Assembly: GCF_038502225.1 (NCBI RefSeq)
Contig: NC_091390.1
Span: 10,099,744 to 10,163,743, forward strand
Direction: 5' to 3'
DNA from: Cherax quadricarinatus
Taxonomy: Eukaryota; Arthropoda; Malacostraca; Decapoda; Parastacidae
Length of the DNA: 64,000 nt
Under the pieces are notes generated by a model. The model did not search any database and was not told the DNA's origin. It saw nothing but the letters and a program-made list of their open reading frames with translations. The translations under genes and the position numbers were made by a program. This document shows, in pieces, positions 4,784 through 62,794 of this stretch (its first letter is position 1; each line of letters begins with the position of its first letter).

Positions 4784-4844
4784 GGTATAAAATACCGACA
4801 GGTTGTTAGGTAAGACACATATACAACAGTTAGGTATCTTTATT

Positions 4845-4883
4845 TCGAAACGTTTCGCCTACACAGTAGGCTTCTTCAGTCGA
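4845..4883 (-). ncRNA. hammerhead-like core, CUGAAGA family, left arm
   Basis: On the minus strand: stem I TCGA, core CTGAAGA, an extra A, stem II GCCTAC/GTAGGC with loop TGT, then GAAAC, GTT and stem I TCGA. It is the reverse complement of the copy at 5374-5412. Core position 7 is a free position in the CUGANGA consensus, so the A there is allowed. Confidence 0.65.
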
Positions 4884-5373
4884 GTACAGAAAAGTTGATA
4901 GAAGCAGAAGATACTTGAAGACGATGTAATCAGTCCATCACCCTTAAAGTTTTGAGGTGGTCAGTCCCTCAGTCCGGAGAAGAGCATTGTTCCAAAGTTT
5001 GAAACAATATGGAGTTGAAGTGACAGGATGGAGCCTTATATAGTGCCAGGAGGTGAGACAGGTCACTAGTAGAACGCAGATGTTGGGAGGTCAGGTCCTT
5101 CTCAAATCCAGCCTCTCTCACTACTAGAGGTAGTCGTAGTTGATTCCAGGTCTGAGAAGGACCTGACCTCCCAACATCTGCGTTCTACTAGTGACCTGTC
5201 TCACCTCCTGGCACTATATAAGGCTCCATCCTGTCACTTCAACTCCATATTGTTTCAAACTTTGGAACAATGCTCTTCTCCGGACTGAGGGACTGACCAC
5301 CTCAAAACTTTAAGGGTGATGGACTGATTACATCGTCTTCAAGTCTCTTCTGCTTCTATCAACTTTTCTGTAC

Positions 5374-5412
5374 TCGACTGAAGAAGCCTACTGTGTAGGC
5401 GAAACGTTTCGA
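5374..5412 (+). ncRNA. hammerhead-like core, CUGAAGA family, right arm
   Basis: Stem I TCGA (5374-5377), core CTGAAGA (5378-5384), extra A, perfect 6-bp stem II GCCTAC/GTAGGC with loop TGT (5386-5400), GAAAC, triplet GTT (5406-5408) and stem I TCGA (5409-5412). Stem III is only the palindrome ACGT, so cleavage would need two copies paired together. An AATAAA follows at once. Confidence 0.65.
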
Positions 5413-5641
5413 AATAAAGATACCTAACTGTTGCATATGTGTCTTACCTAACAATAATTTTTTTTTCTTGGCCAATAGTCCTTTACATTGAGTTGTCCTT
5501 CCTCTTGCAGTGTATCTTAGACATTTTTTATTACTTCTGCAGAATTAGTTGCATCTCTTTTATTTCAATTTTAGCATTTTGTATCATTTTTATTGTTCAT
5601 TATTTTTGCCTTAATTGTTTTTGTGCAACTTCTTTGCCATT

Positions 5642-6839
5642 ATGTCTCACATACCGTCAAGTGATACTTTAGTGAATGTCGACACTCAGACCTCTCAGGC
5701 TACTGCTGCTCCTGTCATCAGTCCTCACAATTCCTTAGCGACTGACAGACCGACCCAGACACCGAGATACTATAGTTATACTCGTGATTCCCTTGATGCG
5801 TTACCTTTATTCAATGGCCATGTACATAGTCTTGAAGCATGGTTTGCGGCCATTCGTTCTCGTGCTAGTGCTCTAGTTGAAGGTCCTCCTTCAGAGGAAA
5901 GTCTTATCAGACTTGCTAAAGAAGCTCTTCATCGATCCCCTGCTGCTGTTCACGTTGTTGATCTCCTTGATATGCGTGACTTCAGGAATCTTACTAAGTG
6001 GTCACAATATGAGGAACTGATTCGTTCTTTCCTTGTCCCAGTAAGAACAGCTGATCCATATGTCGTTCTTAGGGAACTAGTGAATGCTACACCCATGAGT
6101 AATGAATCGTTGAGTGCATTTGCTGTTAGATTAGACAAACTTTTATCATCATTTATCAATGCTGTCCAGTCATCAGCTTTTCTCCCTGATGAGGTTAAAC
6201 CATTCACAGAACCGTTTGCTAAAATAGCAGCTTTTGGAGCAATCAAAGAACTAATGCCGCCCGCTTCCATGTGTGCTTATGAGGCTCATCCTCCAACTGT
6301 GACGATGGAACCACTTACAGCCTTAAATCATGTACGTTCCTTGTGCCCCCAGGGTACTTTCCCATGTATTAAAAAGTAATTTCACACCTATGCCTCAGTC
6401 TGCACCACCTCTTGTTTGCGCCACAGAGACCAATCGTGGTCGTCAACCATCTCAGAGATCACCAAGAACCAGTGTACAGAGTCGTTATAAACCTCGTAGT
6501 ATTCATAGTACATTCAGCAACCATAGTCGGCGGACTTGTTACAGCTGTGGTTTCCGTGGCCATATTGCAATTAATTGTCCTGATAGTTACCCTAAGAGAC
6601 ATCGTACTGATGATGAGTACCCAGATCTTCCCTACTGTACTTATCAAAGAATACATGGACATGACACATCTGAGTGCAATGCTCTCTATAACCTTCAGTA
6701 CTCTAGGTCTTTCCGTGGCCGTTCCAACCGCAGAACCCGTAGAGAAAACAGACGTCGTGGTTCTCAAACTAACCAGAACCAGGTTCATTCTTCCAATTCG
6801 GGGGAATTCGAGCGCTTAAGTCAAACCGTCCCATGGTGA
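5642..6839 (+). pseudogene. gag: gag of the Ty3/gypsy element, one frameshift
   Basis: The start is the ATG at 5642 (MSHIPSSDTL); the open frame upstream of it has no ATG. The first segment, to the TAA at 6377-6379, is the capsid-like part (SLEAWFAAIRSRASAL, LLDMRDFRNLTKW). The frame then shifts by one base between about 6330 and 6379. The second segment, to TGA 6839, carries a canonical CX2CX4HX4C zinc knuckle, CYSCGFRGHIAINC (about 6536-6577), and a second Cys/His cluster, CTYQRIHGHDTSEC, that recalls the variant knuckle of some plant gypsy Gags. The tail is Arg-rich, as expected for nucleocapsid. Gag would package the RNA and form the particle. Capsid and knuckle normally share one protein, so the break is most likely a mutation or a base-calling error. 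Confidence 0.8.
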
Positions 6840-8647
6840 CAGTAGGTGATAATGAGTACACCATCCCCGTTCACAATTCCTTTGAAGCCTTAAGCAGTCT
6901 CGAGAATGACAATCCTGCTGATGATGTTGCTTCATATGTCTCTGACATAGATGATTTTGGGGATGAAGTGGAACAAGTTTTTTCTGATGACAATCCACCT
7001 TTTTGTTTGCACATAACTTCCAATGCAACCATAGGCCCTATAGTGCAAGCATCTGTTCATAATGCGCCCGTTCATTTGTTCATGGACTCTGGTGCGCAAG
7101 TCAATATTATTAGGTCTAGTTTGTTTAAGGATAAGCAGTTACGACATGTCCTTCTCGTAGAACCGACTCATGTGTCCTCCCTTAGTGGAGTAGCTGGTTC
7201 TCACCTGCGTGTCCGAGGTCGGACTTCCCTAACTTTTTCTATCCAAGGTAGAGACTTCACTGCTTCCTTCCTTGTTGTCGACCAGATTACTTTCCCTGGT
7301 GACCTTCTACTGGGCTTTGCTTCCATGCGAGACTTACGCATTGTGCTCGACCCTTATCGATGGCATGCCCAAATTGACGACTTGATCGTTCCATTCTGGG
7401 GTTACCAGCTTGGATCAGAAATCTGTCATACTGCTGCAGAGTATGATGTACGGATTAAGTCCCTACAAGCTAATGCATTCTCCAGTAGCGTACCCAAGCG
7501 GTCAGGCACTGGTAATTCTGTCACTCCCGTCTGCGTTCCACCTATACCTTCAGACTTGCAGGATAGTCCGTTGCCTCAAGTGTCCGAGGACACTCAGACT
7601 GCCTTGAATGCACAACCTATCCTTGCAATGACTGCTAGTTCGAGTAGTAGTTTCTCCACAGGGGATGCCTTGTCAGAAAACGATTACTTGAAACTAGTAA
7701 TGCCATCTCTTGTTGATGTCACATGCCGTCTGCAGAAAGACGTCTCTGTTGCGGCTAGTGCTCTCACTAGAGTGTCTGTTGTTGTTCCTAGTGTTCCAGA
7801 TGGTGATAACGTCCTAGTTGACAGTGATTCCTGCAAAGTAAAAGGTCTATTTGTTGAACCATCCTTACATGTTGTAAGAGATAGTAAGATCCATTTCTTC
7901 CTGGCCAACACTTCTGGTCACAGTGTTCGTCTCAGAGCAAATACCAACCTCGTTGACCTAGTTCACTATCCTTACCCTGTTCAGGTAGAGGATGAGTTGT
8001 CACCTGACCAGTGGGTCGGTGCTATTTCTACCGGGGAGACCTCATCCACTTCACTGGATCAATCTGTTCCACCAGTTGAGGAGAAAGACTTAGCTCCCAC
8101 TGACTTCCCAGATGAAGTCAAGCGTTTGTTGACTCTGTTGAACAAACGTCGTAAAGCCATTGCCTTACCAGGTGAGAAGATGGGTATAACGAACTTATTG
8201 TCCCATCGTATTCCACTTGAACCTGGTACTAGACCTATCTACATACCTGCGTACAGAATGCCTCATTCACAAGTTGCTGTCGCAGAAGAATTGATCAATC
8301 AGATGCTTGATGATGGAGTTATTGCACCTAGCAATTCACCTTGGAATGCACCCTTGATCCTAGTACCTAAGAAGGATGGTACTTGGCGCCCAGTGATTGA
8401 CTTTAGGAAGTTAAATGCGAAAACTATTCCAAATCGCTTCCCACTTCCTGTACTGGGTGATCTTTTACGTAACATCGGAGATAACAAAGTCTTTCCAACC
8501 CTGGATTTGTTACAAGGGTTTTGGCAAGTCCCTCTTCACGAGGACAGCCAAGAGCTAACTGCATTCTCCACTCCTACAGGTCATTATCACTTCCTCCGTA
8601 TGGCGTTTGGATTACGATCTTCCCTATCACGTTCTCAAGGCTCATGA
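6833..8647 (+). pseudogene. pol: pol part 1: aspartic protease and N-terminal RT
   Basis: Starts at ATG 6833, which overlaps the gag stop (ATGGTGA). The frame is also open upstream, so entry by a -1 frameshift is equally possible. The protease active site DSGA is at about residues 85-88 (7085), in the context HLFMDSGAQVNII. A long linker of low similarity follows. The RT fingers and palm begin near residue 460: VPKKDGTWRPVIDFRKLN (about 8368-8421), then LDLLQGFWQVPL, which holds the first catalytic aspartate, and FLRMAFGLRS. Just after this the frame breaks. The catalytic YLDD box lies in a different frame downstream, so a single lost base near 8620 inactivates the enzyme. The final residues before the stop at 8647 are out-of-frame. 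Confidence 0.85.
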
Positions 8648-11061
8648 CTAATATCTTTAGAGGTCTCATAGGTAATGCACTTATGGTGTACTTAGATGAC
8701 GTAATCGTCATGTCTAAAGACGTGGATACACACTTGAAAAGACTTGATGTAGTACTTGGTAAGCTTGAAGAAGCCAATTTAAAGATTAAACTGTCTAAAT
8801 GTCAATTTTTCAGATCAGAAATTAAGTTTCTTGGTCACGTAGTCACTCCTAGAGGGGTTACGACTGACCAAAGTAAAGTAACTGCAGTACTAAATTTTCC
8901 AACTCCCAAAACTGCTGATGCTGTAAGATCCTTTGTGGGCTTAGCAGGTTTTTATAGATCTTTCATTGCCAATTTTTCTTCCATAGCTGCTCCTCTAACT
9001 GAGTTGCTTAAGAAAGATGCTCCTTTTGTTTGGACCTTCCGTCAAGAAAGAGCATTCCAAACTCTAAAAGAAAAGCTAACATCTGCTCCAATTTTGAAAT
9101 TTCCAGATTTTTCTAAGCCCTTCTATCTGACAACTGATGCTAGTTCTATTGGCATAGGTGCCGTACTAGCTCAGAAGACCGATGGCAAGTACAACGCAGT
9201 TGCATTTGCTAGCCGAGTCCTTACGAAGGCTGAACGTAATTATACAGTAACTGAGCAAGAAGCTTTAGCAATAGTATGGTCTTTAAAGTACTTCCGAGAC
9301 ATTATTTATCAGTACTCTGTTCATGTCTTGACAGACCAAGCTTCACTGATACCTTTATTCCAGAACAAACAACCTACTGGAAGGTTAGCCAGATGGACCT
9401 TGACTATCCAAGAGTTCAATCCCACCTTTGAGCATTTACCTGGCAAGTCAAATGTAGTCGCAGATGCCTTATCGCGACATGTTAGTATAGTAACTGCAGA
9501 CCCTCCATTTAGTGCTGAAGAAGTAAAGAATGCTCAACGAACAGATCCCATGTGGTCTGGTGTGATTCGATTCCTGCTCCAGGAAGATCTTATTCTGACT
9601 GTGAAGCCACCAGCACCCATCAGTGACTTTGTCATGAACCAAGAATTACTGTATCGAACAGCCGAGTTGGGTACTCCTAGCAGAAGAGTATACCAGTTAG
9701 TAATTCCACAGTCACTAGTGAATGTAGCCTTACAGCTAGTTCACGATGTACCAGGTGTTGCACACCCTGGTATGGATCGTTCAGTAAAACAAGCCAGATT
9801 GAAATACTTTTGGCCTCGTATGGCAACTGATATTTCTGAGTATGTTAAGAAATGTTGTGTCTGCATGCAACATAAAGGTAATGCTAATGGTCCTAATCCA
9901 ATCCAAGTATATCCAACTACTAGCGAACTGTGGGAAAGAGTTGCGCTAGATTTGTTAACTAATTTCCAATGTTCCCTCCAAGGCAACAAACATCTGTGTG
10001 TTATGGTAGACCATTTCACCAGATATTGTGAGTTAGTTCCTATTGCAGATAAGACTGCCGAGACAGTAGCTAAAGTGTTTAAAGAACGCATTATCTGCAG
10101 GCATACCACCCCTAAGTCCCTAGTAACAGATAATGGAGGTGAATTCTGTAATGAGATTCTTGAAAATTTGTGTACCTTGTACAAGATCTCTAAATCCACC
10201 ATTGTTCCTCATCATCCTGCCAGCAATGGGTTAGCGGAACGAACCAATAAGAAAGTACTTGATGTCTTGAGAGCCACTATCAATCCCAACAGTGAAACTT
10301 GGGATGAAGTTATACCTGATGTGCAGTGTGCTATAAATTCTGCTTACAATGTTTCTATAGGTGACACTCCACATTATGCATTGTACGGTGTAGATAAACG
10401 TTTGGCTTATGAGTTGTTATATTCTAATCCGAAACCAAATTACAACCCTGATGATTTCATAGCAACTCGTACCAGCTTAGCTCAAAGTGTTTTTAGAAGA
10501 ATCCGTGAAACACTTCATAAATCAACAGCAGAATTTACAAGAGTCGCAAACACTCGAGCAAAGCCATCCAAAATCAAAGTAGGTTCGAGAGTTATGCTGA
10601 TTAACTTCAACAAAACGTCTGCAATGCCAAAGCTTGATCAAAAGTTTGTTGGTCCTTATCGAGTAGTTGAACATATCACTGGTAATAAGTATAAGGTTAG
10701 AGAGATTAGTACTGGTCAGTATAAAGAATCGCATTTAGATCATATGAAGTTAGTATGTGATGATAATGATGTTCCAACCCAGACTAATGTGACAGACTCT
10801 AACAATCCTCCTGATCCTGTACTCTCTTCCTCTGATATTCAGTCAGACGATCAACCTGAATGTCGTTATTCCCTACGTACACGACAGGTATTGAGAAATC
10901 CTCAAGTATCATTTGTAACATCCAATTCAGATTTGCCTCAAATACAGCATGAGTTAGCCAATACAACAGAGTTTGATCCTCCCAGAGATGACACTCATTC
11001 TGCATATGTCAATCTTACCCTAGCAGAGTTGGGGTTAAATGTAAATAACCTGAATAGATGA
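8632..11061 (+). pseudogene. pol: pol part 2: RT palm, RNase H, integrase
   Basis: An open frame continues from 8632 (FSRLMTNIF) to TGA 11061; in-frame codons before that point (from 8521) are out-of-phase RT sequence. Domains in order: the RT palm with YLDDVIV (about 8686-8706), thumb, RNase H beginning LTTDASSIGIGAVLAQ (about 9127), integrase with its HHCC zinc domain (HPGMDRSVKQARLKYFW ... CCVC, about 9760-9870), the catalytic core with D (VALDLL, about 9950), D (VTDNGGEF, about 10125) and E (HHPASNGLAERTNKK, about 10240), and a C-terminal GPY/F module (KFVGPYRVVEHITG, about 10640). All catalytic residues are present. The only serious lesion is the frame break before 8632. The acidic, Pro-rich tail after 10750 has no domain I recognise. 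Confidence 0.9.
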
Positions 11062-11774: not shown

Positions 11775-11775
11775 T

Positions 11776-12304: not shown

Positions 12305-15300
12305 CGGTATACCTTGTACATGTACTTGTATACCTTGTACATGTACCTGTATACCTTGTACATGTACTTGTATACCTTGTACCTGTACTTGTATACCTTG
12401 TACACGTACTTGTATACCTTGTACATGTACTTGTATACCTTGCACATGTACTTGTATACCTTGTACATGTACTTGTATACCTTGTACATGTACTTGTATA
12501 CCTTGTACATGTACTTGTATACCTTGTGCATGTATTGTATACCTAGTACACGTAATTGTATACCTTGTACATGTACTTGTATACCTTGCACATGTACTTG
12601 TATACCTTGTACATGTACTTGCATACCTTGTGCATGTACTTGTATACCTTGCACATGTACTTGTATACCTTGCACATGTACTGGTATACCTTGTACATGT
12701 ACTTGTATACCTTGTACATGTACTTGTATACCTTGTACATGTACTTGTATACCTTGTACATGTACTTGTATACCTTGTACATGTACTTGTATACCTTGTA
12801 CATGTACTTGTATACATTGTGCATGTATTGTATACCTTGTACACGTAATTGTATACCTTGTACATGTACTTGTATACCATGTACATGTACTTGTTTACCT
12901 TGTGCATGTACTTGTGTACCTTTTACATGTACTTGTATACCTTGTACATGTACTTGTACACCTTGTACATGTACTTGTATACCTTGTACATGTACTTGTA
13001 TACCTTGTACCTGTACTTATATACCTTGTACACGTACTTGTATACCTTGTACATGTACTTGTATACCTTGTACATTTACTTGTATACCTTGTACATGTAC
13101 TTGTATACCATGTACATGTACTTGTATACCTTGTACATGTATTTGCGTACCTTGTACATGTACTTGTATACCTTGTACATGTACTTGTATACCTTTTACA
13201 TGTACTTGTATGCCTTTTACATGTACTTGTGTACCTTGTACTTATACTTGTATACCTTGTACATGTACTTGTATTCCTTGTACACGTACTTGTATACCTT
13301 GTACACGTACTTGTATACCTTGTACATGTACTTGTATGACTTGTACATGTACTTGTATACTATGTACATGTACTTGTATACCTTGTACATGTACTTGTAT
13401 ACATTGTACAATTAGTTGTATACCTTGTACATGTACTTGTATACTTTGTACATGTACTTGTATACTTTGTACACGTACTTGTATACCTTGTACATGTACT
13501 TGTATGCCTTATGCATGTACTTGTATACCTTGTACATGTACTTCTATACCTTTTACATGTACTTGTATACCTTGTACACGTACTTGTATTCCTTGTACAT
13601 GTACTTGTATACCTTGTACATGTAATTGTATACCTTGTACACGTACTTGTATACCTTGTACATGTACATGTATACCTTGTACATGTACTTGTATTCCATG
13701 TACATGTACTTGTATACCTTGTACATGTAATTGTATACCTTGTACATGTACTTGTATGCCTTGTACATGTACTTGTATACCTTGTACATGTACTGGTATA
13801 CCTAGTACATGTACTTGTATACCTTGTACATATACTTGTATACCTTGTACATGTACTTGTATACCTTGTGCATGTGCTTGTATGCCTTGTATATGTACTT
13901 GTATACCTTGTACATGTACTTGTATACCTTGTACTCGTTCTTGTATACCTTGTACATGTACTTGTATACCTTGTACATGTATTTGTATACCTTGTAGATG
14001 TACTTGTATACCTTGTACATGTACTTGTATACCTTGTACATGTACTTGTATACCTTGTGCATGTACTTGTATACCTTGTACATGTACTGGATACCTTGTA
14101 CATTTACTTGTATACCTTGTACATGTATTTGTATACCTTGTACATGTACTTGTATACCTTGTACATGTACTTGTATGCCTTGTACATGTACTTGTATACC
14201 TTGTACATGTACTTGTATACCTTGTACATGTACTTGTATACCTTGTACGTGTACTTGTATACCTTGTACATGTACTTGTATACCTTGTACATGTACTTGT
14301 ATACCTTGTACATATACTGGTATACCTTGTACATTTCCTTGTATACATTGTACATGTATTTGTATACCTTGTACATGTACTTGTATACCTTGTACATGTA
14401 CTTGTATACCTTGTACATGTACTTGTATACCTTGTACATGTACTTGTATACTTTGTACATGTACTTGTATACCTTGTACATGTACTTGTATACCTTGTAC
14501 ATGTACTTGTATACTTTGTACATGTACTTGTATACCTTGTACATGTACTTGTATACCTTGTACATGTACTTGTATACCTTGTACATATATTGGTATACCT
14601 TGTACATTTACTTGTATACCTTGTACATGTATTTGTATACCTTGTACATGTACTTGTATACCTTTTACATGTACTTGTATACCTTGTACATGTACTTGTA
14701 TACCTTGTACATGTACTTGTATACCTTGTACATGTACTTGTATACCTTGTACATGTACTTGTATACCTTGTACATGTACTTGTATAAATTGTACATGTAC
14801 TTGTATACCTTGTACATGTACTTGTATACCTTGTACATGTACTTGTATACCTTGTACATGTACTTGTATACCTTGTACATGTACTTGTATACCTTGTACA
14901 TGTACTCGTATACCTTGTACATGTACTTGTATACCTTGTACATGTACTTGTATGCCTTGTACATGTACTGGTATACCTTGTACATGTACTTGTATACCTT
15001 GTACATGTACTCGTATACCTTGTACATGTACTTGTATACCTTGTACATGTACTTGTATGCCTTGTACATGTACTGGTATACCTTGTACATGTACTTGTAT
15101 ACCTTGTACATGTACTTGTATACCATGTACATGTACTTATATACCTTGTACATGTACTCGTATACCTTGTACATGTACTTGTATACCTTGTACATGTACT
15201 TGTATGCCTTGTACATGTACTGGTATACCTTGTACATGTACTTGTATACCTTGTACATGTACTCGTATACCTTGTACATGTACTTGTATACCTTGTACAT

Positions 15301-17785
15301 GTACTTGTATGCCTTGTACATGTACTGGTATACCTTGTACATGTACTTGTATACCTTGTACATGTACTCGTATACCTTGTACATGTACTTGTATACCTTG
15401 TACATGTACTTGTATACCTTGTACATGTACTCGTATACCTTGTACATGTACTTGTATACCTTGTACATGTATTTGTATACCTTGTAGATGTACTTGTATA
15501 CCTTGTACATGTACTTGTATACCTTGTACATGTACTTGTATACCTTGTGCATGTACTTGTATACCTTGTACATGTACTGGTATACCTTGTACATTTACTT
15601 GTATACCTTGTACATGTATTTGTATACCTTGTACATGTACTTGTATACCTTGTACATGTACTTGTATGCCTTGTACATGTACTTGTATACCTTGTACATG
15701 TACTTGTATACCTTGTACATGTACTTGTATACCTTGTACGTGTACTTGTATACCTTGTACATGTACTTGTATACCTTGTACATGTACTTGTATACCTTGT
15801 ACATATACTGGTATACCTTGTACATTTCCTTGTATACATTGTACATGTATTTGTATACCTTGTACATGTACTTGTATACCTTGTACATGTACTTGTATAC
15901 CTTGTACATGTACTTGTATACCTTGTACATATACTTGTATACTTTGTACATGTACTTGTATACCTTGTACATGTACTTGTATACCTTGTACATGTACTTG
16001 TATACTTTGTACATGTACTTGTATACCTTGTACATGTACTTGTATACCTTGTACATGTACTTGTATACCTTGTACATATACTGGTATACCTTGTACATTT
16101 ACTTGTATACCTTGTACATGTATTTGTATACCTTGTACATGTACTTGTATACCTTGTACATGTACTTGTATACCTTGTACATGTACTTGTATACCTTGTA
16201 CATGTACTTGTATACCTTGTACATGTACTTGTATACCTTGTACATGTACTTGTATACCTTGTACATGTACTTGTATAAATTGTACATGTACTTGTATACC
16301 TTGTACATGTACTTGTATACCTTGTACATGTACTTGTATACCTTGTACATGTACTTGTATACCTTGTACATGTACTCGTATACCTTGTACATGTACTTGT
16401 ATACCTTGTACATGTACTTGTATGCCTTGTACATGTACTGGTATACCTTGTACATGTACTTGTATACCTTGTACATGTACTCGTATACCTTGTACATGTA
16501 CTTGTATACCTTGTACATGTACTTGTATGCCTTGTACATGTACTGGTATACCTTGTACATGTACTTGTATACCTTGTACATGTACTTGTATACCTTGTAC
16601 ATGTACTTATATACCTTGTACATGTACTCGTATACCTTGTACATGTACTTGTATACCTTGTACATGTACTTGTATGCCTTGTACATGTACTGGTATACCT
16701 TGTACATGTACTTGTATACCTTGTACATGTACTCGTATACCTTGTACATGTACTTGTATACCTTGTACATGTACTTGTATGCCTTGTACATGTACTGGTA
16801 TACCTTGTACATGTACTTGTATACCTTGTACATGTACTCGTATACCTTGTACATGTACTTGTATACCTTGTACATGTACTTGTATACCTTGTACATGTAC
16901 TCGTATACCTTGTACATGTACTTGTATACCTTGTACATGTACTTGTATGCCTTGTACATGTACTGGTATACCTTGTACATGTACTTGTATACCTTGTACA
17001 TGTACTTGTATACCTTGTGCATGTACTTGTATACCTTGTACATGTACTTGTATACCTTGTACATGTACTTGTATACCTTGTACATGTACTTGTATGCCTT
17101 GTACATGTACTGGTATACCTTGTACATGTACTTGTATACCTTGTACATGTACTCGTATACCTTGTACATGTACTTGTATACCTTGTACATGTACTTGTAT
17201 ACCTTGTACATGTACTCGTATACCTTGTACATGTACTTGTATACCTTGTACATGTACTTGTATGCCTTGTACATGTACTGGTATACCTTGTACATGTACT
17301 GGTATACCTTTTACATGTACTTGTATACCTTGTACATGTACTCGTATACCTTGTACATGTACTTGTATACCTTGTACATGTACTTGTATACCTTGTTCAT
17401 GTACTCGTATACCTTGTACATGTACTTGTATACCTTGTACATGTACTTGTATGCCTTGTACATGTACTGGTATACCTTGTACATGTACTTGTATACCTTG
17501 TACATGTACTTGTATACCTTGTGCATGTACTTGTATACCTTGTACATGTACTTGTATACCTTGTACATGTACTTGTATACCTTGTACATGTACTCGTATA
17601 CCTTGTACATGTACTTGTATACCTTGTACATGTACTTGTATGCCTTGTACATGTACTGGTATACCTTGTACATGTACTTGTATACCTTGTACATGTACTT
17701 GTATACCTTGTGCATGTACTTGTATACCTTGTACACGTACTTGTATACCTTGTACATGTACTTGTATACCTTGTACGTGTACTGA
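12305..17785. repeat. 21-bp tandem array, about 260 copies
   Basis: Units consist of TTGTATACC followed by TTGTACATGTAC. The unit contains the perfect palindromes GTACATGTAC and GTATAC. Its length is divisible by 3 and it has no stop in any of the six frames, so all six frames stay open for hundreds of codons as 7-residue repeats. These are not genes. Units are more diverged in the first 1.7 kb and more uniform later. A higher-order duplication of 1,491 bp (71 units) relates about 13970-15460 to 15461-16950. Marker variants such as ACTCG, ACTGG and TATGCC recur in the same order. Confidence 0.95.
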
Positions 17786-17792
17786 TAATAAA

Positions 17793-18845: not shown

Positions 18846-18884
18846 TTGAAACGTTTCGCTTACACAGTAGACTTTCTCAGTCAA
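18846..18884 (-). ncRNA. hammerhead-like core, decayed
   Basis: On the minus strand: TTGA, CTGAGAA (off consensus at position 8), A, GTCTAC-TGT-GTAAGC (one mismatched pair), GAAAC, GTT, TCAA. Probably inactive. Confidence 0.45.
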
Positions 18885-18972: not shown

Positions 18973-19011
18973 TGACTGAAGAAGGCTACTCAGTAGTCGA
19001 AATGTTTCAAC
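18973..19011 (+). ncRNA. hammerhead-like core, TTGA/TCAA stem I
   Basis: TTGA (18973-18976), CTGAAGA, A, GGCTAC-TCA-GTAGTC, GAAAT (usually GAAAC), GTT, TCAA (19008-19011). Stem I pairs perfectly. The GAAAT breaks the ACGT palindrome that would form stem III. Confidence 0.5.
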
Positions 19012-49964: not shown

Positions 49965-51775
49965 TAACCCAGCAGCGAAGGCGGTCGTGGGACAGACACT
50001 GAGAACAGACATAGCAGGCTCTTCTGTTGGGACTCCGGTGGGGTGAGCGGGGACGACGGGACAGGCGAAGATTAGCGCTAGAGCGGAGTGTAGAATTGAG
50101 CCATGTCTTGACCCAAAAGCTAAGGCGAACGTGGGTGAGAGAATGAACAGCGCAAGGTACCTGTCAGAGAATGGTACCTGTCATAGAAGGTATCTGTCAG
50201 CGAATCCAAGGTTATTTGTAAATAGGGTTAGGAGCAGGATCATGCAAGGAGTAGAAAAGGTTGTGCTGGTTTGTGGGTCTGCGAATGTCTTCGTCAAGGA
50301 GAGAGGTCCAGTAGTCATGTCGTGTCTCAAGTTTGTCTATCTGTCTGTCACTGAGCGTCTTCCAGTACAGATTCAGCGCAGGGATGTCTAATTAGGCATG
50401 GAGAGACTCGCTTGTGGCGAAGTCCTCCCATCTGACATCAAGCACCCAGCGCAGCGCCTTGTTCTGGACACGCTGCAGTTTAATTAAGTTTGTTTTTGCT
50501 GTAAGAGAGAGGGCTAGAGGAGAGTAAGTTATCAGAGGACGTATTAGGGATTTGTAGAGGTGTAGTTTGGTGCGTTGAGAGGCATGTTTCAGTTTGTAGA
50601 GGCCCGCAAGGGCCTTACTAGCTATTGCATGTCTTGAGTGAATGTGTCCGTGTAAACGAAGAAGGTAGTCAAGATTAACGCCAAGGACAGTGACAGATTG
50701 TGTGATGGGGATGTAAGTGCGGGTGTCAGCTGTTCTGAGTTCGACAGGTAATGGAGGATCACGTTTCCTGTAGTTAAAACATGTAATGCTGGATTTAACT
50801 GCATTGGTTTTGATCCTCCATTTCTGTTCCCAGATGGCTATCTTGTCGACCTCATTTTGTGTTTTGTGTGAGTGTATCTATACTGGCGTGAGTGATGAGT
50901 TGTGTAATGTCGTCTACATAGGCTAGTGTGATAGAGTTGTGGTATACAGGTGTTGGAATGTCAGTGTATAAAATGTAGAGGGTAGGGGAGAGGACAGATC
51001 CCTGGGGTACTCCAGCATTTAGTGTGAAACAGTCAGAGTAACAGCCTTGGAATTTTATTCTCATGGTACGGCCGTCTAGGAAGTTGCAGAGGAGTTTACG
51101 AGTATTGAGAGGCAGGTTGAAGTTAGTGCAGAGTTTGTACTTGAGCCCTTCGTGCCAGACAGTGTCAAAAGCTTTTTCAACGTCTTTTGCAACCAGGGCT
51201 ATCCTGTTTCTTTGTTTTGTGTTTATGTGGATGTAGTTGAGAATGATGTTAATGGCATCCTGTGTGGATCTGTGTGTTCTGAAGCCAAACTGGCCATCAG
51301 AAAGTAGAGAATTTTGTTCCAGGTATCTGCGAAGGCGATGGTTGATGAGTTTTTCAAAGAGTTTTCCTAAAGTTTCGAGGAGGCTGATAGGGCGATAGTT
51401 TCTAGGATCAGAGTGGTCTTTATTGGGTTTAGGAAGGAGGATAGTAGTAGCAGCTTTGAAGAGGGAAGGGAAGTATTCAGAGGCAAGGGGGGCATTGAGG
51501 AAGTTTGTGTAGACAATAATGGTGGAGTCAGGAAGGTGTTTTAGGATAATATGGTTTAGGCCAGAGGCACCAGGAGCCTTGGGAGGAAGGTGTCTGAGGA
51601 GAGTTTTAATGTCTGTGTTGGTGAAAGGAGTGTCGAGTTCTTGGGAAGAGGTAAGAGAGTCCAGATGGATGTGGTTGTCTGGTGTTGTTTCTTGTGTGTG
51701 TGTAGTGTTCCAGTGTTCTATGTTCTGAATGTGTTGGATAGCGTTAGGGTGAGGTGGGTGTGAAAAGGAGAAATG
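49965..51775 (-). mobile_element. 5'-truncated Jockey/CR1-type LINE, minus strand
   Basis: Contains an RT-bearing ORF2 fragment (50212-51775) and about 250 bp of 3' sequence ending at the 23-bp array. The 3' part (on the minus strand GCTGCTGGGTTAAGTCCTGG) matches plus-strand sequence at 55155-55180 (GCTGCTGGGTTAAGCCCTGG), so the same LINE family is present twice. The 5' side stops abruptly at PLE-derived sequence near 51776. Confidence 0.75.
50212..51775 (-). pseudogene. LINE reverse transcriptase, C-terminal part
   Basis: Reading from 51775 down, the protein has LLRHLPPKAPGASGLNHIIL, LLPKPNKDHSDPRNYRPISL, FGFRTHRSTQDAI, LVAKDVEKAFDTVWHEGL (motif A), AGVPQGSVLSPTLY (motif B) and LAYVDDITQLI (motif C, about 50903-50935). 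These are the diagnostic RT motifs of Jockey- and CR1-like LINEs. A frameshift near 50860 moves the thumb and connection region into another frame (VTVLGVNLDYLLRLHGHI, LHLYKSLIRPLITYSP, LQRVQNKALRWVLDV). One in-frame TAA (50392-50394) interrupts it before the last 60 codons, which end at 50212. The apurinic endonuclease is absent. The enzyme would prime reverse transcription at a nicked target; this copy is dead. Confidence 0.85.
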
Positions 51776-52006
51776 GAGGGAATATATATAGGCCAGCAGA
51801 CAGGGACGGGACAAAAGAGGAAGTAGTGGAGTGAGTCAAATACTAAGAAAGAGGAGCACTACAAGGGAGCTAGTGGCCCACAGAGGGTAGGAGTAAGAAC
51901 ACAGACGGGGGGGGGATAATAAAGGACAAATGCCCAAGGCAGGAGAAAGAAAATCCAATGGAGAAAGAGGAAAGGGGAAGAGGGAGAAGAGAAAAAAAGA
52001 ATCAGG
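51776..52006 (-). other. 3' flank of PLE copy 2
   Basis: Purine-rich on the plus strand with no gene. The minus strand carries CCTCTTTTGTCCCGTCCCTG, then TCTGCTGGCCTATATATATTCCCTCC. This resembles the plus-strand sequence at 53163-53235, so the PLE fragment lies between inverted copies of one short terminus. Confidence 0.5.
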
Positions 52007-53040
52007 TTAAGTCACGAGTGTTGTGAAGTTTGGAGCATTTTACAATGTAGTGGGAGAGGAAGACATCTACAGAGACGAAGCCACGACTAAGTTTCATACA
52101 AGGAAAGTTGTGTATTAGGGAGGATTCAACCAGACGGCGACTGTTAAAGTTGGAAGTAGGGAAGACAGTTTTAGCAGAAGACCAGTCAATACGATGACTC
52201 TGATCTCTGACGTGACAGAAAAGAGCATTGTTAGTGTTGGCAAGCCTAACACAATTTTTGTACTCCCTGAGTCTGTCAGAAAGAGATCGACCAGTTTCTC
52301 CAAAGTATTGAAGATGACAGGAGGAGCAAGAAATAGACTAGACACCAGGAACATCTATAGAGGGAGGAGAGGTATGAACGAGGTTAGTGAGAGGAGTGTT
52401 AGTCTGGCGGAAAGTAAGTTTGATGTCTAAGGGACGGAGAGAGTTGTTGAGATTAGAAAGACTGGAAATATAGGGAAGGCAGAGGACAGAAGAGTTCCCA
52501 GGAGTAGAGAGTTTGAGAGAGAAGAAAATCCGTTTAACACGTGAGAAGACAGAGTGTATGAAGTGGGAAGGGAAGCCAAGACGGTAAAATGAATTATGAA
52601 GGGTAGAAATTTCTGACCCAAGGAACTGAGGATAACAAATGTGGAGAGCACGGAGAAAGAGGGAGATAACACTTTTCTTGACAGAGGAAGCATGATAAGA
52701 AAAGTAGTGAATGTACATGTCACTGTGCATAGGACTGTGGTACACGGAAAGAGCAAAACCTGTATCAGAGCGGTGGGCGTGAACATCAAGGAAAGTAAGC
52801 AAGGAATTAGATTCCCATTCAGTTTTAAACTTAATGGAAGGAGCAAGATTATTAAGAGCTTCAAGAAATGGTTGAAGGAGACTCGAGTCATGAGGTCAAA
52901 GAGCCAAGATGTCATCTACATAGCGGAGCCAGAGTGAAGGTCGCACATAAGAAGTAGGAAGAAGAACGGTCTCGAAGTATTCCATATTAAGATTAGCAAG
53001 AGCAGGAGATAGCGATACCGAAGGTTTGAGAATAATATTT
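52007..53040 (-). pseudogene. Penelope-like element copy 2: RT end and GIY-YIG endonuclease
   Basis: Reading down from 53040: a weak motif B region, LRYVDDILAL (RT motif C, near 52910) followed at once by a stop, a frameshift, then LLTFLDVHAHRSDTGFALSV, LFLRALHICYPQFLGSE and a connection region. Another frame change leads to GVYSISCSSCHLQYFGETGR (near 52330), the GIY-YIG endonuclease with its Cys-rich insert, and the protein ends RDLT at 52007. The same order of blocks occurs in the better-preserved PLE at 59318-60964 with modest identity, so this is a different PLE family. It is 5'-truncated where a (TAC)n tract begins. Some of its frames look open on their own but the domains span three frames. 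Confidence 0.8.
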
Positions 53041-55790: not shown

Positions 55791-55887
55791 AACTACAACC
55801 ATATATATTTAGAAACCCCTATTATGTTCCTCCAATATCTCTCTTGCTCTCCTTGTCACCTAGTACAACTGGCTTTCCAGAGCGTGT

Positions 55888-55980: not shown

Positions 55981-56089
55981 TAACTTTTTTGTTTATTTTC
56001 TAGTATTCACCAATAGTAATAAAGTTGGTAGAATTACCGACAATATGTAAAGTAAAAGGACACAAGTGCAACTAATGTGACACTTATTG

Positions 56090-56126
56090 TGGCAACGTTT
56101 CGCTCTCCAGGAGCTTTATCAAGCCA
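56090..56126 (-). ncRNA. hammerhead-like core, UUGAUAA family, left arm
   Basis: Minus strand: stem I TGGC, core TTGATAA, A, stem II GCTCC-TGG-AGAGC region, GAAAC, GTT, stem I GCCA. Core positions 3 and 8 are U and A instead of C and G, which still pair. Confidence 0.55.
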
Positions 56127-56140
56127 TGTATTGTTTGTAA

Positions 56141-56177
56141 TGGCTTGATAAAGCTCCTGGAGAGCGAAACGTTGCCA
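56141..56177 (+). ncRNA. hammerhead-like core, UUGAUAA family, right arm
   Basis: TGGC (56141-56144), TTGATAA, A, GCTCCTGGAGAGC, GAAAC, GTT, GCCA (56174-56177). Reverse complement of the left-arm copy. Confidence 0.55.
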
Positions 56178-56302
56178 CAATAAATGTCACATTAGTTGCA
56201 CTTGTGTCCTTTTACTTTACATATTCACCAATAACTAACTCATTTTGCCTGTAACTCGCAATACAGCTATCGTGATGGTCTATTCTGCTTAATTTTATTG
56301 TA

Positions 56303-56642: not shown

Positions 56643-56700
56643 TGCCATTTTATTCCATAGGTCCCAGTTGTTTATAAATGTTACTGCAATGTCCTCACAT

Positions 56701-56935
56701 GCCCCGTAGCTCAGTTACCAGACCACTCAGCTCATACATTAAGGTCCATTAGACACCTACTGTCCCTGTTGACCTAGCAATAAATAGGTACCCGGGTGTT
56801 AGCCAACTGATGTGGGTTGCATCCTGGGCACAAAACCTAGTTTGCCTGAAATGGTCTGCATGACAAGCGGCTGCCTATATAGTGTGACTGATGTCAATTA
56901 TGATCTGTATACGTTGTGCATGTACTTGTGGTATA
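56701..56935 (+). mobile_element. intact-looking tRNA-derived SINE (seed of the two arrays)
   Basis: Begins GCCCCGTAGCTCAGTTACCA, whose TAGCTCAGT matches a tRNA A box. It continues through GGTACCCGGGTGTTAGCC, GATGTGGGTTGCATCCTGGG, ACAAGCGGCTGCCTATATAG and TGACTGATGTCAATTATG, and ends GTATACGTTGTGCATGTACT. It holds one 32-bp unit and one 21-bp unit of the arrays at 11776-17785, in the same order. Its 3' tail is lost at the junction with a hammerhead element at 56942. Confidence 0.75.
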
Positions 56936-56941
56936 AACCTT

Positions 56942-57190
56942 GGTAATAAATACCGACAAGTTGGTTAAGAAAGACACGTAAGCAAACACTAAGACATATT
57001 TATTAGAAAACGTTTCGGTCCTGGGACCTTGATCACTTCTAACATACAGAGGTAGAAAGACATTATATATATAGGCGGAGAGTGAGGTGTGACGCACGTG
57101 ACCTGAGGAATGTCATAAGAACATAGGAATGGAGGAACACTGTAGAAGGCCTACTGGCCCATGCGAGGCAGGTCCTTATCAAAACAAACA
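56942..57190 (-). mobile_element. outer arm (left) of a hammerhead element, GUGAUCA family
   Basis: Reverse complement of 61607-61835, including the core and the stretch ATGCGAGGCAGGTCCTTATC. The hairpin GGTA-ATAAA-TACC followed by GACA lies at its left end (56942-56958). Confidence 0.75.
57003..57042 (-). ncRNA. hammerhead-like core, GUGAUCA family, left copy
   Basis: Minus strand: stem I TTAGAA, core GTGATCA, A, stem II GGTCC-CA-GGACC, GAAAC, GTT, stem I TTCTAA. Positions 3 and 8 are G and C, a swap of the usual C-G pair. Confidence 0.6.
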
Positions 57191-57304
57191 CATGATTTCA
57201 TCGTCTACCCGTCCTCATCATAGGTAGAGGTTGTTTTGTGATGAATGGTTTGAAAAACCGACAAGTTGAAGATTGTAATAAAGTTGTTAGAATTACCGAC
57301 AATA
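57191..57304. other. junction between nested elements
   Basis: Holds a second hairpin GGTT-TGAAA-AACC followed by GACAAGTTG (57247-57268) and TTGTTAGAATTACCGAC (57283-57299), both marks of hammerhead-element ends. No gene. Confidence 0.5.
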
Positions 57305-57348
57305 TGTAAAGTAAAAGGACACAAGTGCAACTAATGTGACATTTATTG

Positions 57349-57385
57349 TGGCAACGTTTCGCTCTCCAGGAGCTTTATCAAGCCA
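57349..57385 (-). ncRNA. hammerhead-like core in the left PLE arm
   Basis: Minus strand TGGC, TTGATAA, A, GCTCCTGGAGAGC, GAAAC, GTT, GCCA. Mirror image of the copy at 61232-61268. Confidence 0.55.
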
Positions 57386-57668
57386 TTACAAACAATACAT
57401 GGACACAGAGGGTATATAAAGGCTCAGAGTGAGGTGAATACTAGTGAGGTACCATTTCGATGTTCACTAGTGGTAGTAGTAGTAGTAGTAGTAGTGGTAG
57501 TGACAAAAGTAATACAATATGGTAGAGCAATTAATTCGTACATGAGTAAAAGGATATAAAAGCTATTACTTGGGTAACATAAAAATAGGTTGGACAAATA
57601 TAAACTGGAATGAGGCAGCTTGTTTCAGTGTTCACTCTCTGTGCTTTGTGTAGTATAACAGGAGAGAC

Positions 57669-58209
57669 TATGTGATGGCAGGGTTTACTGTTTTCAGGAG
57701 GATTCTTGCTAAGACTTCGGAGATGGTGAAGCTGCCGTTGTTTTGTTTAATTGTATTCGAAACAGCGATCAGTGCTGATTCAAGGCACTTGCGTGTGCGG
57801 AAATTAGTTTCTTTTATCACTAATTGGGCGTCTCTGAATTTCATAAGATGATTGGTGGAATTTCGGTGTTGTACACAGGCGTTGTTTAAGTTGTCGTTCC
57901 TACATGCGTATATGTGTTCATTGAGGCGGGTGTCGAGGTTTCTTGCTGTTTCACCTACGTAGATCTTGTCACAGCCTCCACAGGGTATAGTGTAAACTCC
58001 TGCATTGACTGGTTCGTGGTGCTTGGGTTTTGTCCTGGTTAGATCCTTTATTGAAGTGGTAGAAGCGATGGCGACTCTGGTGTTAGCTTGTGAAAGTACT
58101 TTTGAGACGTTTAGTGCAACCTGGCTGTTGGGAAGAATTATAACTTTGTTGGGAGCGGTGTTGATGCGTGGAGAATTGATGATCTGAAGAGCTCTTTTCT
58201 TGCAGTCTC
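57669..58209 (-). pseudogene. inverted copy of the PLE endonuclease end
   Basis: Minus-strand sequence encodes the last 180 or so codons of the PLE protein, including the GIY-YIG region, with the stop at 57669-57671. It is near-identical to 60427-60963 and starts abruptly at 58209, where it abuts the N-terminal coding part of the plus-strand PLE. It has no start and no RT. Confidence 0.8.
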
Positions 58210-58823
58210 TCCAACTCCAAGCACCCCTTCTCTCCAGCTACCCAAGCTTACTTAACTGAATGTGCCGAAGAACTTTCTAACATCGCTAAGGAAACCTTTG
58301 AAACTGCAAGGAATATGAGGGCCAATCTTCAGATTGACCAACACACTGCTGAGCATATTCTCAGCAGTCACCACAGCTAACCTCCAACAGAAGATCAAAC
58401 TCAATCGCAAACTTCAATACCTCTGCACTAACAGTCGATGGAAGGAAATGGGACGCGAATCCCTGATAAACAACTTATCGTCACGCACCTTAACCGACTA
58501 CGAGAAACAAGCACTGAGTCTGGGACTCAAATTTACCACCAACATACGCAAACCTAACTATCAACTCAATCTTGTTACCAGGAACCATAGACACAGTGAC
58601 AGCAACTTCCAGGAGGGTTATATACAGGGCCTTCTCACTGCAGCTTTATGTGAACCTTCTTCTTCTAATCTTCCTAGAAGATACATCACTGCCCTTAAGG
58701 ACCTCGCCAACGACCCCAACATCTCCACGACTATGGTGCTGTTCGCACCTACTCCTAGGTTGAGGGACTGATTACCTCATCTTCTGTACATAGTTCTACT
58801 GTCTTCAAGTTATGTCCTGGAAT

Positions 58824-58862
58824 TTGTATTGATAAAGCCACTGGATGGCGAAACGTCTACAA
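58824..58862 (+). ncRNA. hammerhead-like core with GUC, first tandem copy
   Basis: Stem I TTGTA (58824-58828), core TTGATAA, A, stem II GCCA-CTGGA-TGGC, GAAAC (58850-58854), triplet GTC (58855-58857), stem I TACAA (58858-58862). Positions 3 and 8 are U and A. Confidence 0.6.
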
Positions 58863-59238
58863 TAAAGATACCCAGATGTTGCACATGTGTCTTACTCTCA
58901 TCTTGTCGGTATTATATACCTTTCGTACACAACTTGTCAGACACTGCAACATCATGGAATCTTAATTCTAAGGACATGTACATAACCTTCACAACTACGA
59001 CTACTACTACAACTAACCCATCTCTTTGGGAAGGACCTACTTCCACTGGGGAATCCCGCCCACCAGTGAATTTGCCCTCGTCTGTTTCACCTGACGTTAC
59101 TATATAAGCGCCAGGATTCTTTCTTCTGCTTCAGAATCTCCACGACTATGGTGCTGTTCGCACCTACTCCTAGGTTGAGGGACTGATTACCTCATCTTCT
59201 GTACATAGTTCTACTGTCTTCAAGTTATGTCCTGGAAT

Positions 59239-59277
59239 TTGTATTGATAAAGCCACTGGATGGCGAAACGTCTACAA
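59239..59277 (+). ncRNA. hammerhead-like core with GUC, second tandem copy
   Basis: Same sequence as 58824-58862, exactly 415 bp downstream. Two cleavages would release a 415-nt monomer. Confidence 0.6.
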
Positions 59278-61110
59278 TAAAGATACCCAGATGTTGCACA
59301 TGTGTCTTACTCTCATCATCATTATCGTCACCACCGCCGACAAAGGAGGTGGAGTCGTCATACTCAACACCAGTGACTACAACACTAAAATGATGGACCT
59401 TTTGAATGATCAATCTACATACGAACCCATCAGCACTCAACAGTGGGAGACGCTCACCAAAGACTTTCTATACAAAACCAGACAAATACTCAAACGCACT
59501 AGAGAAGGGAAGAAACTTCTGTACTTGTTACCAAGCAACCCTAAACCAGCACACATGTATGGTTTACCCAAGACCCATAAACACAATATTCCTCTCAGAC
59601 CAATCACGTCAGGAATAGGCAGTGCTCCACACAAACTAGCCGGAGTTCTTGCCAAACATCTTTCCTGCCTTCTGGGGACCATCAGCCCCGCTCATCTTAA
59701 ACACTCAGGCGACCTTCTCAACCGCATCCGTAACCTCTCCATCCGTAACAAGAAACTAAGCAGTTTGGATGTGACTTCCCTCTTCACAAAAGTACCTACC
59801 AAAAAAGCCATCGAGGTTCTACGACGTAAAGTCAACCAGGACCTTAATCTTCCTTTACCTCCCGGAGATTTTGTTGACTTGATTGAACTCTGTGTTAACT
59901 TCAACTGTTTTTCCTTCAATAACAAGCTCTACAAACAAACCTACGGCATGGGAATGGGGTCCCCAATAAGTGCCGTCCTAGCCTACTTATACATGGAACA
60001 CCTAGAGTCCGAACACTTCGCCAACATCATCCCTTCAAGCGTCACTTGGTTACGTTACGTGGACGATGTCCTCGTAATAACTCCAAAACGTTTTGATGTA
60101 CGGGATCTTCAGGCAAGGCTCAACGCAGTTGAACCAGCGATTCAGTTTACACTAGAAGAAGAGTCCAATGACAAGCTACCTTTCCTCGACGTCCTCATTC
60201 ACAAAGTAGACAACAACCTAAGATTTCAAGTTTATCGGAAACCCACCAATAAAAATGATCTCACACACTTCTATTCCAGTCAAGATACCAAGACCAAAAG
60301 AGGCATCATCATCGGGTTTTTCCTAAGAGCATACCGAATTTGTAGTCCTGAGTTTCTTGACGAGGAATGTACTTACATTCACCAAACATTCACTGAGTTA
60401 CAATTTCCTTCTTTTTTCATCAAAGACTGCAAGAAAAGAGCTCTTCAGATCATCAATTCTCCACGCATCAACACCGCTCCCAACAAAGTTATAATTCTTC
60501 CCAACAGCCAGGTTGCACTAAACGTCTCAAAAGTACTTTCACAAGCTAACACCAGAGTCGCCATCGCTTCTACCACTTCAATAAAGGATCTAACCAGGAC
60601 AAAACCCAAGCACCACGAACCAGTCAATGCAGGAGTTTACACTATACCCTGTGGAGGCTGTGACAAGATCTACGTAGGTGAAACAGCAAGAAACCTCGAC
60701 ACCCGCCTCAATGAACACATATACGCATGTAGGAACGACAACTTAAACAACGCCTGTGTACAACACCGAAATTCCACCAATCATCTTATGAAATTCAGAG
60801 ACGCCCAATTAGTGATAAAAGAAACTAATTTCCGCACACGCAAGTGCCTTGAATCAGCACTGATCGCTGTTTCGAATACAATTAAACAAAACAACGGCAG
60901 CTTCACCATCTCCGAAGTCTTAGCAAGAATCCTCCTGAAAACAGTAAACCCTGCCATCACATAGTCTCTCCTGTTATACTACACAAAGCACAGAGAGTGA
61001 ACACTGAAACAACCTGCCTCATTCCAGTTTATATTTGTCCAACCTATTTTTACGTTACCTTTTACTCATGTACGAATTAATTGCTCTACCATATTGTATT
61101 ACTTTTGTCA

Positions 61111-61144
<34 letters not shown>

Positions 61145-61231
61145 CACTAGTGAACATCGAAATGGTACCTCACTAGTATTCACCTCACTCTGAGCCTTTA
61201 TATACCCTCTGTGTCCATGTATTGTTTGTAA

Positions 61232-61268
61232 TGGCTTGATAAAGCTCCTGGAGAGCGAAACGTTGCCA
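61232..61268 (+). ncRNA. hammerhead-like core at the PLE 3' terminus
   Basis: TGGC, TTGATAA, A, GCTCCTGGAGAGC, GAAAC, GTT, GCCA. It lies about 270 bp after the PLE stop, where PLE hammerheads are expected. Confidence 0.6.
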
Positions 61269-61312
61269 CAATAAATGTCACATTAGTTGCACTTGTGTCC
61301 TTTTACTTTACA

Positions 61313-61606
61313 AGTTGAAGATTGAGACACTTATGCAGCATATGGGAATCTTTATTCAGGAAACGTTTCGCCACACAGTGGCTTCATCAGTCCAATACAA
61401 AGAGGAAGGCGTAAGGAGAGGAGGAGAATGAGGTAATTAGTCCCTCAACCTGGAGTCGATGTGTTCAGTCCATCAATCTTGTAGAATGTACAGCATAGGG
61501 CCGTAGACGTGGCTTATATACTGTAGTGAGGTGACGTGAAGCAGATGGAGGCGGGGTCATAGTGGTACCATCCACTAGTCGAAGTAGGTCTTCGTCCAAA
61601 GGTTGT
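61313..61606 (-). mobile_element. single hammerhead-element unit, CUGAUGA family, minus strand
   Basis: About 290 bp without a frame, beginning AGTTGAAGATTGAGACAC on the plus strand (the end of the element) and including GAATCTTTATTCAGG next to the core. Lies between PLE copy 1 and the right outer arm. Confidence 0.6.
61359..61393 (-). ncRNA. hammerhead-like core with consensus CUGAUGA
   Basis: Minus strand: GGA, CTGATGA, A, GCCAC-TGT-GTGGC, GAAAC, GTT, TCC. The core box is exactly the consensus. Stem I has only three contiguous pairs, possibly extended past a bulge. Confidence 0.65.
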
Positions 61607-61835
61607 TTTGATAAGGACCTGCCTCGCATGGGCCTGTAGGCCTTCTACAGTGTTCCTCCATTCTTATGTACTTATGACATTCCTCAGGTCACGTGCGTCA
61701 CATCTCACTCTCCGCCTATATATATAATGTCTTTCTACCTCTGTATGTTAGAAGTGATCAAGGTCCCAGGACCGAAACGTTTTCTAATAAATATGTCCTA
61801 GTGTTTGCTTACGTGTCTTTCTAAACCAACTTGTA
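61607..61835 (+). mobile_element. outer arm (right) of a hammerhead element, GUGAUCA family
   Basis: Inverse of 56942-57190. It has the usual order: unique part, core, AATAAA, then GTTTGCTTACGTGTCTTTCT. Confidence 0.75.
61748..61787 (+). ncRNA. hammerhead-like core, GUGAUCA family, right copy
   Basis: TTAGAA (61748-61753), GTGATCA (61754-61760), A, GGTCC-CA-GGACC, GAAAC (61774-61778), GTT, TTCTAA (61782-61787). The 6-bp stem I is the longest of all copies. Confidence 0.6.
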
Positions 61836-61850
61836 CTTGTAGACATAAAC

Positions 61851-61894
<44 letters not shown>

Positions 61895-61895
61895 G
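61830..61895 (+). repeat. SINE tail remnant with (ATT)n
   Basis: CTTGTACTTGTAGACATAAA followed by about 14 ATT units, the same type of tail as at 17785-17850. Confidence 0.65.
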
Positions 61896-62265
61896 TGTTT
61901 GTCCAGCTAGCAATTAATACCATTTGCCCTGCACAACCATTCATTTCTAACTCCTCTCAGCAAAATGCTATATATGACAGTATGCCCTCCCTTCTTCCTA
62001 ATTATTGCTGTTGCTGACATATACCTGCTAATTAGGTCCTCATCACTACGTCTATCAACAATATCCTGACGGCTAACAATATCCTGCATCTCATCCACAG
62101 GAAAACATAACTTCTGCATCCTCTTCCTATCTCTAAATAAAGTCCTATCCTTATACTTAACCTGACTGTACCTGACTATAGCAATATTCTTTGTAGATGA
62201 ATGGTTCAGAGAACCGACATGTTGATAAATTAGACACATGTGCAACTCTTGGGTATCTTTAATGA

Positions 62266-62300
62266 GGAAACGTTTCGCCATACAGTGGCTTCATCAGTCC
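62266..62300 (-). ncRNA. hammerhead-like core, CUGAUGA family, left arm
   Basis: Minus strand: GGA, CTGATGA, A, GCCAC-TGT-ATGGC (one imperfect pair), GAAAC, GTT, TCC. Confidence 0.6.
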
Positions 62301-62378
62301 ATACATAGGAGAAACTTGAAGAACAGGAGGGACTGATTACCTCATTCTCCTCCTGTTCTTCAAGTTTCTCCTATGTAT

Positions 62379-62413
62379 GGACTGATGAAGCCACTGTGTG
62401 GCGAAACGTTTCC
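62379..62413 (+). ncRNA. hammerhead-like core, CUGAUGA family, right arm
   Basis: GGA (62379-62381), CTGATGA (62382-62388), A, GCCAC-TGT-GTGGC, GAAAC (62403-62407), GTT, TCC (62411-62413). Best match to the consensus in the window. Stem I may extend past a two-base bulge (AT with AT). Confidence 0.7.
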
Positions 62414-62794
62414 TCATTAAAGATACCCAAGAGTTGCACATGTGTCTAATTTATCAACAATATTCTTACTGTCTTTGGCGGTGTTCGTCGTGACGTTCTC
62501 GATCATCCTCGTTGGGATGTCCCGGATATTCGATTTACATTTCCTTGATTACACAGAACAAAGAATTACTGGGGTCACAGGAATCTCCTGGACCTTATCT
62601 TCAACTTCATCTCATCCAGGTAGCATCCAATCGTATGTCCGATCACTGACGCGGCTGTTCTCGACGACGTTGTTCCGAGGATAATCCTTGTACATACTTT
62701 TCATCCACTGAATCTCTCTTTTAACTTCCATTAACTCAGCTTTAAGCTGGAAATGGTCGAGGGAAGCCATCATCACAGTCTCAGTAAGCTATGA

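Follow-up and report, generated by a model that had tools for sequence, protein, structure and literature searches.

Are the hammerhead-like motifs in a 64,000-nucleotide stretch of the Cherax quadricarinatus genome (NC_091390.1, positions 10,099,744 to 10,163,743; hereafter the window) ribozymes, and to what kind of element do they belong? A first-pass annotation of the sequence had reported fifteen such cores in five families, with compensatory changes in the stems and at core positions 3 and 8. From the letters of the cores, their covariation, and the Penelope-like element (PLE) anatomy, nested insertions and target duplications around them, we conclude that they are probably hammerhead ribozymes of the minimal type I form carried by Penelope-like retroelements.

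We scanned both strands for the box, stem II, GAAA and stem I. Every GAAACGT and looser box-to-GNAA matches were also listed, and all copies were then tabulated. The scans located all fifteen cores in families A to E, thirteen of them intact and two decayed (Table 1). In each pseudo-long terminal repeat (pLTR), stem I is followed by a CUGANGA-type box, an extra A, stem II, GAAA and then the palindrome ACGU, with the predicted cleavage triplet GUU or GUC at the end. This full order had been ascribed to every copy; it holds in the 13 intact ones and fails at 18880 on the minus strand (box CTGAGAA, stem II mismatch) and at 18976 on the plus strand (GAAAT). The hammerhead core consensus is C3 U4 G5 A6 N G8 A9, G12 A13 A14, an A15-U16 pair and H17 (PMC7151607). 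Apart from positions 3 and 8, all of its residues are present in the 13 intact copies. C3-G8 occurs in the intact A and E copies (5/13), and another pair substitutes for it in B, C and D (8/13), giving C-G, U-A and G-C versions across the families. The idea that 3 and 8 change as a pair agrees with a Watson-Crick pair in 14 of 15 copies but not with the decayed copy at 18880, where C3 faces A8. The extra A after A9 is present in 15/15. Stem II of family B has 4 base pairs (bp) and a 5-nt loop; that of family C is better drawn as GGTC/GACC with loop CCAG, because the GGTCC/GGACC pairing originally proposed would leave a 2-nt loop.

These 15 copies are not 15 independent observations. The partners of a pair arose at the same time, so the copies go back to about eight insertions (A, A34, B12, B34, C, D, E1 and E23) and not to 15 events; U3-A8 stands for three insertions and G3-C8 for one.

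Several other matches were discarded. The scan match at 61315-61367 has a 28-nt loop and a stem I of just 1 bp, three GAAACGTC sites (55316, 55913 and 56577, plus strand) have no stem I, and the remaining GAAACGT sites have no box. The three GAAACGTC sites consist of GGTC/GGCT-type hairpins followed by that sequence, with neither stem I nor an intact box, and two of them sit in a 72-nt repeat whose copies are 90% alike.

Could chance or shared descent produce both the motif and the pairing of positions 3 and 8? A strict pattern (box, stem II of at least 4 bp, GAAACGTH, stem I of at least 3 bp) was found 13 times in the window and in 0 of 60 first-order Markov surrogates of it. For the narrower CTGANGA...GAAAC there are 5 matches, whereas 100 shuffles average 0.46 and not one of them reached 5. 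Among the matches listed for viral-contig loci fetched by the core letters, 0 of 144 had stem I of at least 3 together with stem II of at least 4; core letters alone therefore do not entail the stems. Counts of the 3/8 pair from those 144 loci are biased, GTGATCA having been selected deliberately. The U3-A8 core with a TAAAG pattern had no match in viral_contigs, and a PLE protein alignment search for a wider sample confirmed no relative among 26 pattern matches in viral_contigs or 82 in genome_contigs.

Covariation was scored on nine rows (A1, A3, A4, B2, C1, D1, E1, E2 and E3), with A2, B1, B3, B4, C2 and D2 left out as near-copies and just three stem II pairs counted because the MAFFT alignment misplaced a gap. 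Standard pairs fill 93.5% of 62 cells, versus 72.5% in shuffles. Both sides change in 5 of 7 pairs, a result matched by 2 of 500 shuffles, and the covariation score of 0.532 was reached by none of the 500; when partners were slid by 1-3 columns, the score was at most 0.107. We also took one sequence per family and swapped the 3' halves in all 120 ways. The true assignment alone reaches the observed total (19/20 in stem I, 20/20 in stem II and 5/5 at 3/8), which, with the score, supports the compensatory changes described earlier. At positions 3 and 8 by themselves, 4 of the 120 exchanges do equally well. Taken alone, the 3/8 signal is thus suggestive; it gains weight because C3-G8 is a known base pair (PMC3088659). 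Some of these results leave room for chance or descent, namely the 4/120 exchanges, the origin of G3-C8 in a single insertion, the broken 3/8 pair of one decayed copy and the fact that our shuffles ignore relatedness. Against them stand the empty surrogates, the single exchange that attains the combined pairing and the low scores of slid partners, and we regard this explanation as very unlikely.

The setting of the cores is that of a PLE, one of the two element types mentioned in the first-pass annotation. A single frame at 59174-60961 encodes both reverse transcriptase (RT; RVT_1, 1.2e-08) and a GIY-YIG endonuclease (6.6e-05) by Pfam, and pLTRs flank this gene. Its closest protein, among the best 120 of 460 matches, is an uncharacterised Cherax quadricarinatus protein (94% identity over 57% of the query). 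The pLTRs look homologous, since families A, B, D and E have a common sequence past the predicted cleavage site (around ATAAAGATACCCA...GTTGCACATGTGTC), of which C has a more diverged version. Elsewhere, a second, diverged PLE-like RT fragment lies at 52026-53012 on the minus strand (about 34% identity to the PLE homologue P0003 by tblastn), with no core beside it in the core scans.

Six head-to-head pairs of pLTRs are present (A, A34, B12, B34, C and E23). In five of them the minus-strand arm runs on into a tail, TGTCGG plus a hairpin, at the point where the plus-strand arm ends; A34 has no such tail. Exact duplications of 9-15 bp abut the ends of the five tailed pairs, so that pLTRs, an optional tail and target duplications occur together in 5 of 6. 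As a control, 1937 pairs of random 130-nt stretches were drawn from 50-64 kb; a shared word of at least 9 was found in 6.7% and of at least 10 in 2.3%, end-abutting not being required. The 8-nt match at A34 is at chance level (21%), and no exact target duplication could be established for the D insertion. Arms of the tail hairpin vary as pairs (GGTAT/ATACC, GGTA/TACC, GGTTC/GAACC and GGTTT/AAACC), with that of B3 broken. The tail motif TTGTCGGTATT is not enriched by count (12 with at most 2 mismatches versus a shuffle mean of 8.21; 15 of 100 shuffles reach 12), so the evidence for it is its position. The insertions are nested: the arms of C enclose E1, B34 lies within the E1 pLTR and severs E1 from its tail (57254-57264, minus strand), and D sits inside the B34 frame.

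This anatomy also bears on whether the cores might belong to non-LTR retrozymes, small non-autonomous tandem units that carry type I hammerheads and spread as circular RNA. The ribozyme type is identical, and crustaceans are reported among the hosts of retrozymes (PMC7229834). Such elements would be expected to consist of tandem units of about 150-400 bp whose hammerheads include helix III. Here stem III is missing, no detected tandem array holds a core, and the pLTRs in which the cores lie belong to elements that bear RT and show tails and target duplications. The retrozyme reading, an element type that the first-pass annotation had also mentioned, is extremely improbable.

In place of a third helix, GAAAC joins GTT or GTC directly, leaving stem III as AC/GU without a loop, beside stems I and II that are present and covarying; the first-pass annotation had not mentioned this loss. 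PLE hammerheads usually lack helix III (PMC6155905, PMC7761336). Without helix III and inside a PLE pLTR, what we see here is probably a set of genuine minimal, stem-III-less type I hammerheads of the known PLE kind.

Rfam hammerhead models stayed below their gathering score in slices with the B, C, D and E copies (best HH9, 12.4 versus 52 bits), and a run over the whole window, the one run covering family A, had no hammerhead among the 150 of 302 matches listed. Rfam microRNA matches were rejected: near 56.1 and 62.3 kb they fall on the hairpins of the inverted pLTRs, at 12.3-17.8 kb on a tandem array, and all those listed were below their gathering scores.

Folding predictions were mixed. 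As monomers, A, B and C (3 of 6 sequences) are predicted to form both stems while leaving the core open. A number of points weigh against the ribozyme interpretation. The predicted folds of E1 and E3 have both stems but four extra pairs across the core, and D is predicted to take a different fold. Predicted dimers did not show an active shared stem III; in those of A, E1 and E3, GAAACGUUUC pairs with itself. The long hairpins of head-to-head pairs could hide the cores. In PAc, a Poseidon PLE of the lizard Anolis carolinensis, ribozyme mutants insert normally in vitro, making the ribozyme dispensable for that step, and no RNA-seq ends fall at the ribozyme cut site (PMC11167929). The mixed folding is slight evidence against ready spontaneous folding and would be in line with dependence on protein.

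The lizard result, the poor simple folding of D, the blocked core of E and the decay of 2 of 15 copies would also suit motifs that PLEs retain as structured RNA signals, used in reverse transcription or to bind protein, with self-cleavage lost or unimportant. However, U4 G5 A6, A9, G12 A13 A14 and U16.1, which have no pairing role, are kept in 13/13 intact copies while the stems change. A mere stem-loop signal would not need those unpaired residues, and this weakens the folded-signal explanation to the point where we consider it unlikely, though worth keeping in mind.

If the cores are ribozymes, other PLEs suggest how they might work. PLE hammerheads of this sort reportedly cleave as dimers, to judge by the title of Lunse's 2017 paper. 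A single copy, with its stem III of two bp and no loop, would not close alone. Because ACGU is a palindrome, the ACGU segments of two copies could pair with each other in a tandem transcript, giving a shared stem III of four bp. Alternatively, the fold could be maintained by the protein that the element encodes; the PAc hammerhead cleaves only with its protein (PMC11167929). The RNA would then be cut after GUU or GUC, so that multimeric transcripts would be trimmed. Reverse transcription would probably begin further downstream, at tail ends, and starts there would leave tailed and untailed arms. The tail of PAc corresponds to the interval that separates two RT start sites (PMC11167929).

Closest to the present cores are the minimal PLE hammerheads of Cervera & De la Pena (2014) and Lunse, Weinberg & Breaker (2017). 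As far as papers citing them describe these, they are alike in type I order, lack of helix III, pseudo-LTR site and association with RT plus GIY-YIG; the difference is that the window combines three versions of the 3/8 pair. PAc is similar in its pLTR hammerhead near the frame start and in its tail (the equivalent stretch between two RT start sites). Its natural core is C3-G8, whereas the window sequence holds natural U3-A8 and G3-C8. The insertion anatomy fits that of Penelope in another host, Adineta vaga, for which PMC3846280 gives inverted pLTRs, an optional 31-bp tail and target duplications of 8-10 bp; the words 'hammerhead' and 'ribozyme' are absent from the main text of that paper. Rotifer terminons have a similar PLE-type hammerhead but are telomeric, with many extra frames not seen in the window (PMC6431247). 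In the open literature we found no paper joining hammerhead, Penelope and Cherax.

As to novelty, the extra A after A9, although fixed in all copies, is doubtfully new. Going by the title of their 2001 paper, De la Pena and Flores described one additional core nucleotide in the hammerhead of a viroid; this nucleotide reportedly follows A9. Natural U3-A8 had been put forward as new, but the same C3-G8 to U3-A8 covariation was published in 2011 (Perreault 2011, PMC3088659, section 8), in a section that states no PLE origin and no G3-C8. A search of the open literature, outside which the two key PLE papers of 2014 and 2017 fall, yielded no natural G3-C8; there we met the engineered C3G/G8C version only, in which the PAc hammerhead partly regained cleavage (PMC11167929). 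The natural G3-C8 core, which rests on one insertion, is thus possibly unreported. More tentatively, the 3/8 pair of PLE hammerheads may be free to change as a unit, with natural G3-C8 functional alongside C3-G8 and U3-A8 in a single animal genome, but we would not yet favor this. G3-C8 might perhaps be tolerated through the additional A after A9, through folding as a dimer or through the protein of the element.

The remainder of the window holds tandem arrays at 1-2727, 12307-17783 and 19330-49957, with 20-, 21- and 23-nt units, the last array having about 1332 copies over 30.6 kb. An LTR-retrotransposon polyprotein occupies 6773-11058 (plus strand) in two overlapping frames, with protease-like, reverse transcriptase, RNase H and integrase parts. 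A further reverse transcriptase frame lies at 50855-51835 on the minus strand (RVT_1, 8.8e-28), and positions 4344-4443, close to the A pair, are 100 consecutive N.

Table 1. Hammerhead cores, pLTR insertions, tails and PLE coding parts in the window. Core coordinates run from the box to H17; on the minus strand the first base of the box is the higher coordinate.
Feature	Position	Strand	Details
Core A1	4849-4879	-	C3-G8; scans and copy table
Core A2	5378-5408	+	C3-G8; scans and copy table
Core A3, decayed	18850-18880	-	box CTGAGAA; C3/A8 unpaired; stem II mismatch
Core A4, decayed	18976-19006	+	GAAAT replaces GAAAC; C3-G8
Core B1	56094-56122	-	U3-A8
Core B2	56145-56173	+	U3-A8
Core B3	57353-57381	-	U3-A8
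Core B4	61236-61264	+	U3-A8
Core C1	57009-57036	-	G3-C8
Core C2	61754-61781	+	G3-C8
Core D1	58829-58857	+	U3-A8; predicted cleavage triplet GUC
Core D2	59244-59272	+	U3-A8; predicted cleavage triplet GUC
Core E1	61362-61390	-	C3-G8
Core E2	62269-62297	-	C3-G8
Core E3	62382-62410	+	C3-G8
A pair, head-to-head pLTRs	4772-5454		12-bp T-rich duplications
B12 pair, head-to-head pLTRs	56016-56221		12-bp duplications
B34 element, inside E1 pLTR	57276-61309		15-bp duplications
C element, encloses E1 and B34	56930-61831		9-bp duplications
E23 pair, head-to-head pLTRs	62192-62457		10-bp duplications
D insertion in PLE frame	58721-59317	+	direct pLTR copies 58721-58902 and 59136-59317, 100% identical
pLTR tail	58903-58920	+	TGTCGG then hairpin
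Minus-strand tails	near 4791, 56033, 56949, 57254, 57292; adjoining 62297	-	
PLE frame, N-terminal part, before D insertion	58355-58732	+	tblastn with P0003 residues 94-219, 48% identity
PLE RT and GIY-YIG, after D insertion	59321-60937	+	tblastn with P0003 residues 216-755, 58% identity

The window amounts to a small-scale experiment of nature: it brings together five related pLTR families and three variants of a single core pair, and the order of its insertions can be read. It allows us to ask whether a hammerhead depends on which base occupies position 8, and whether selection keeps PLE ribozymes even though one lizard PLE inserts without cleavage in vitro.

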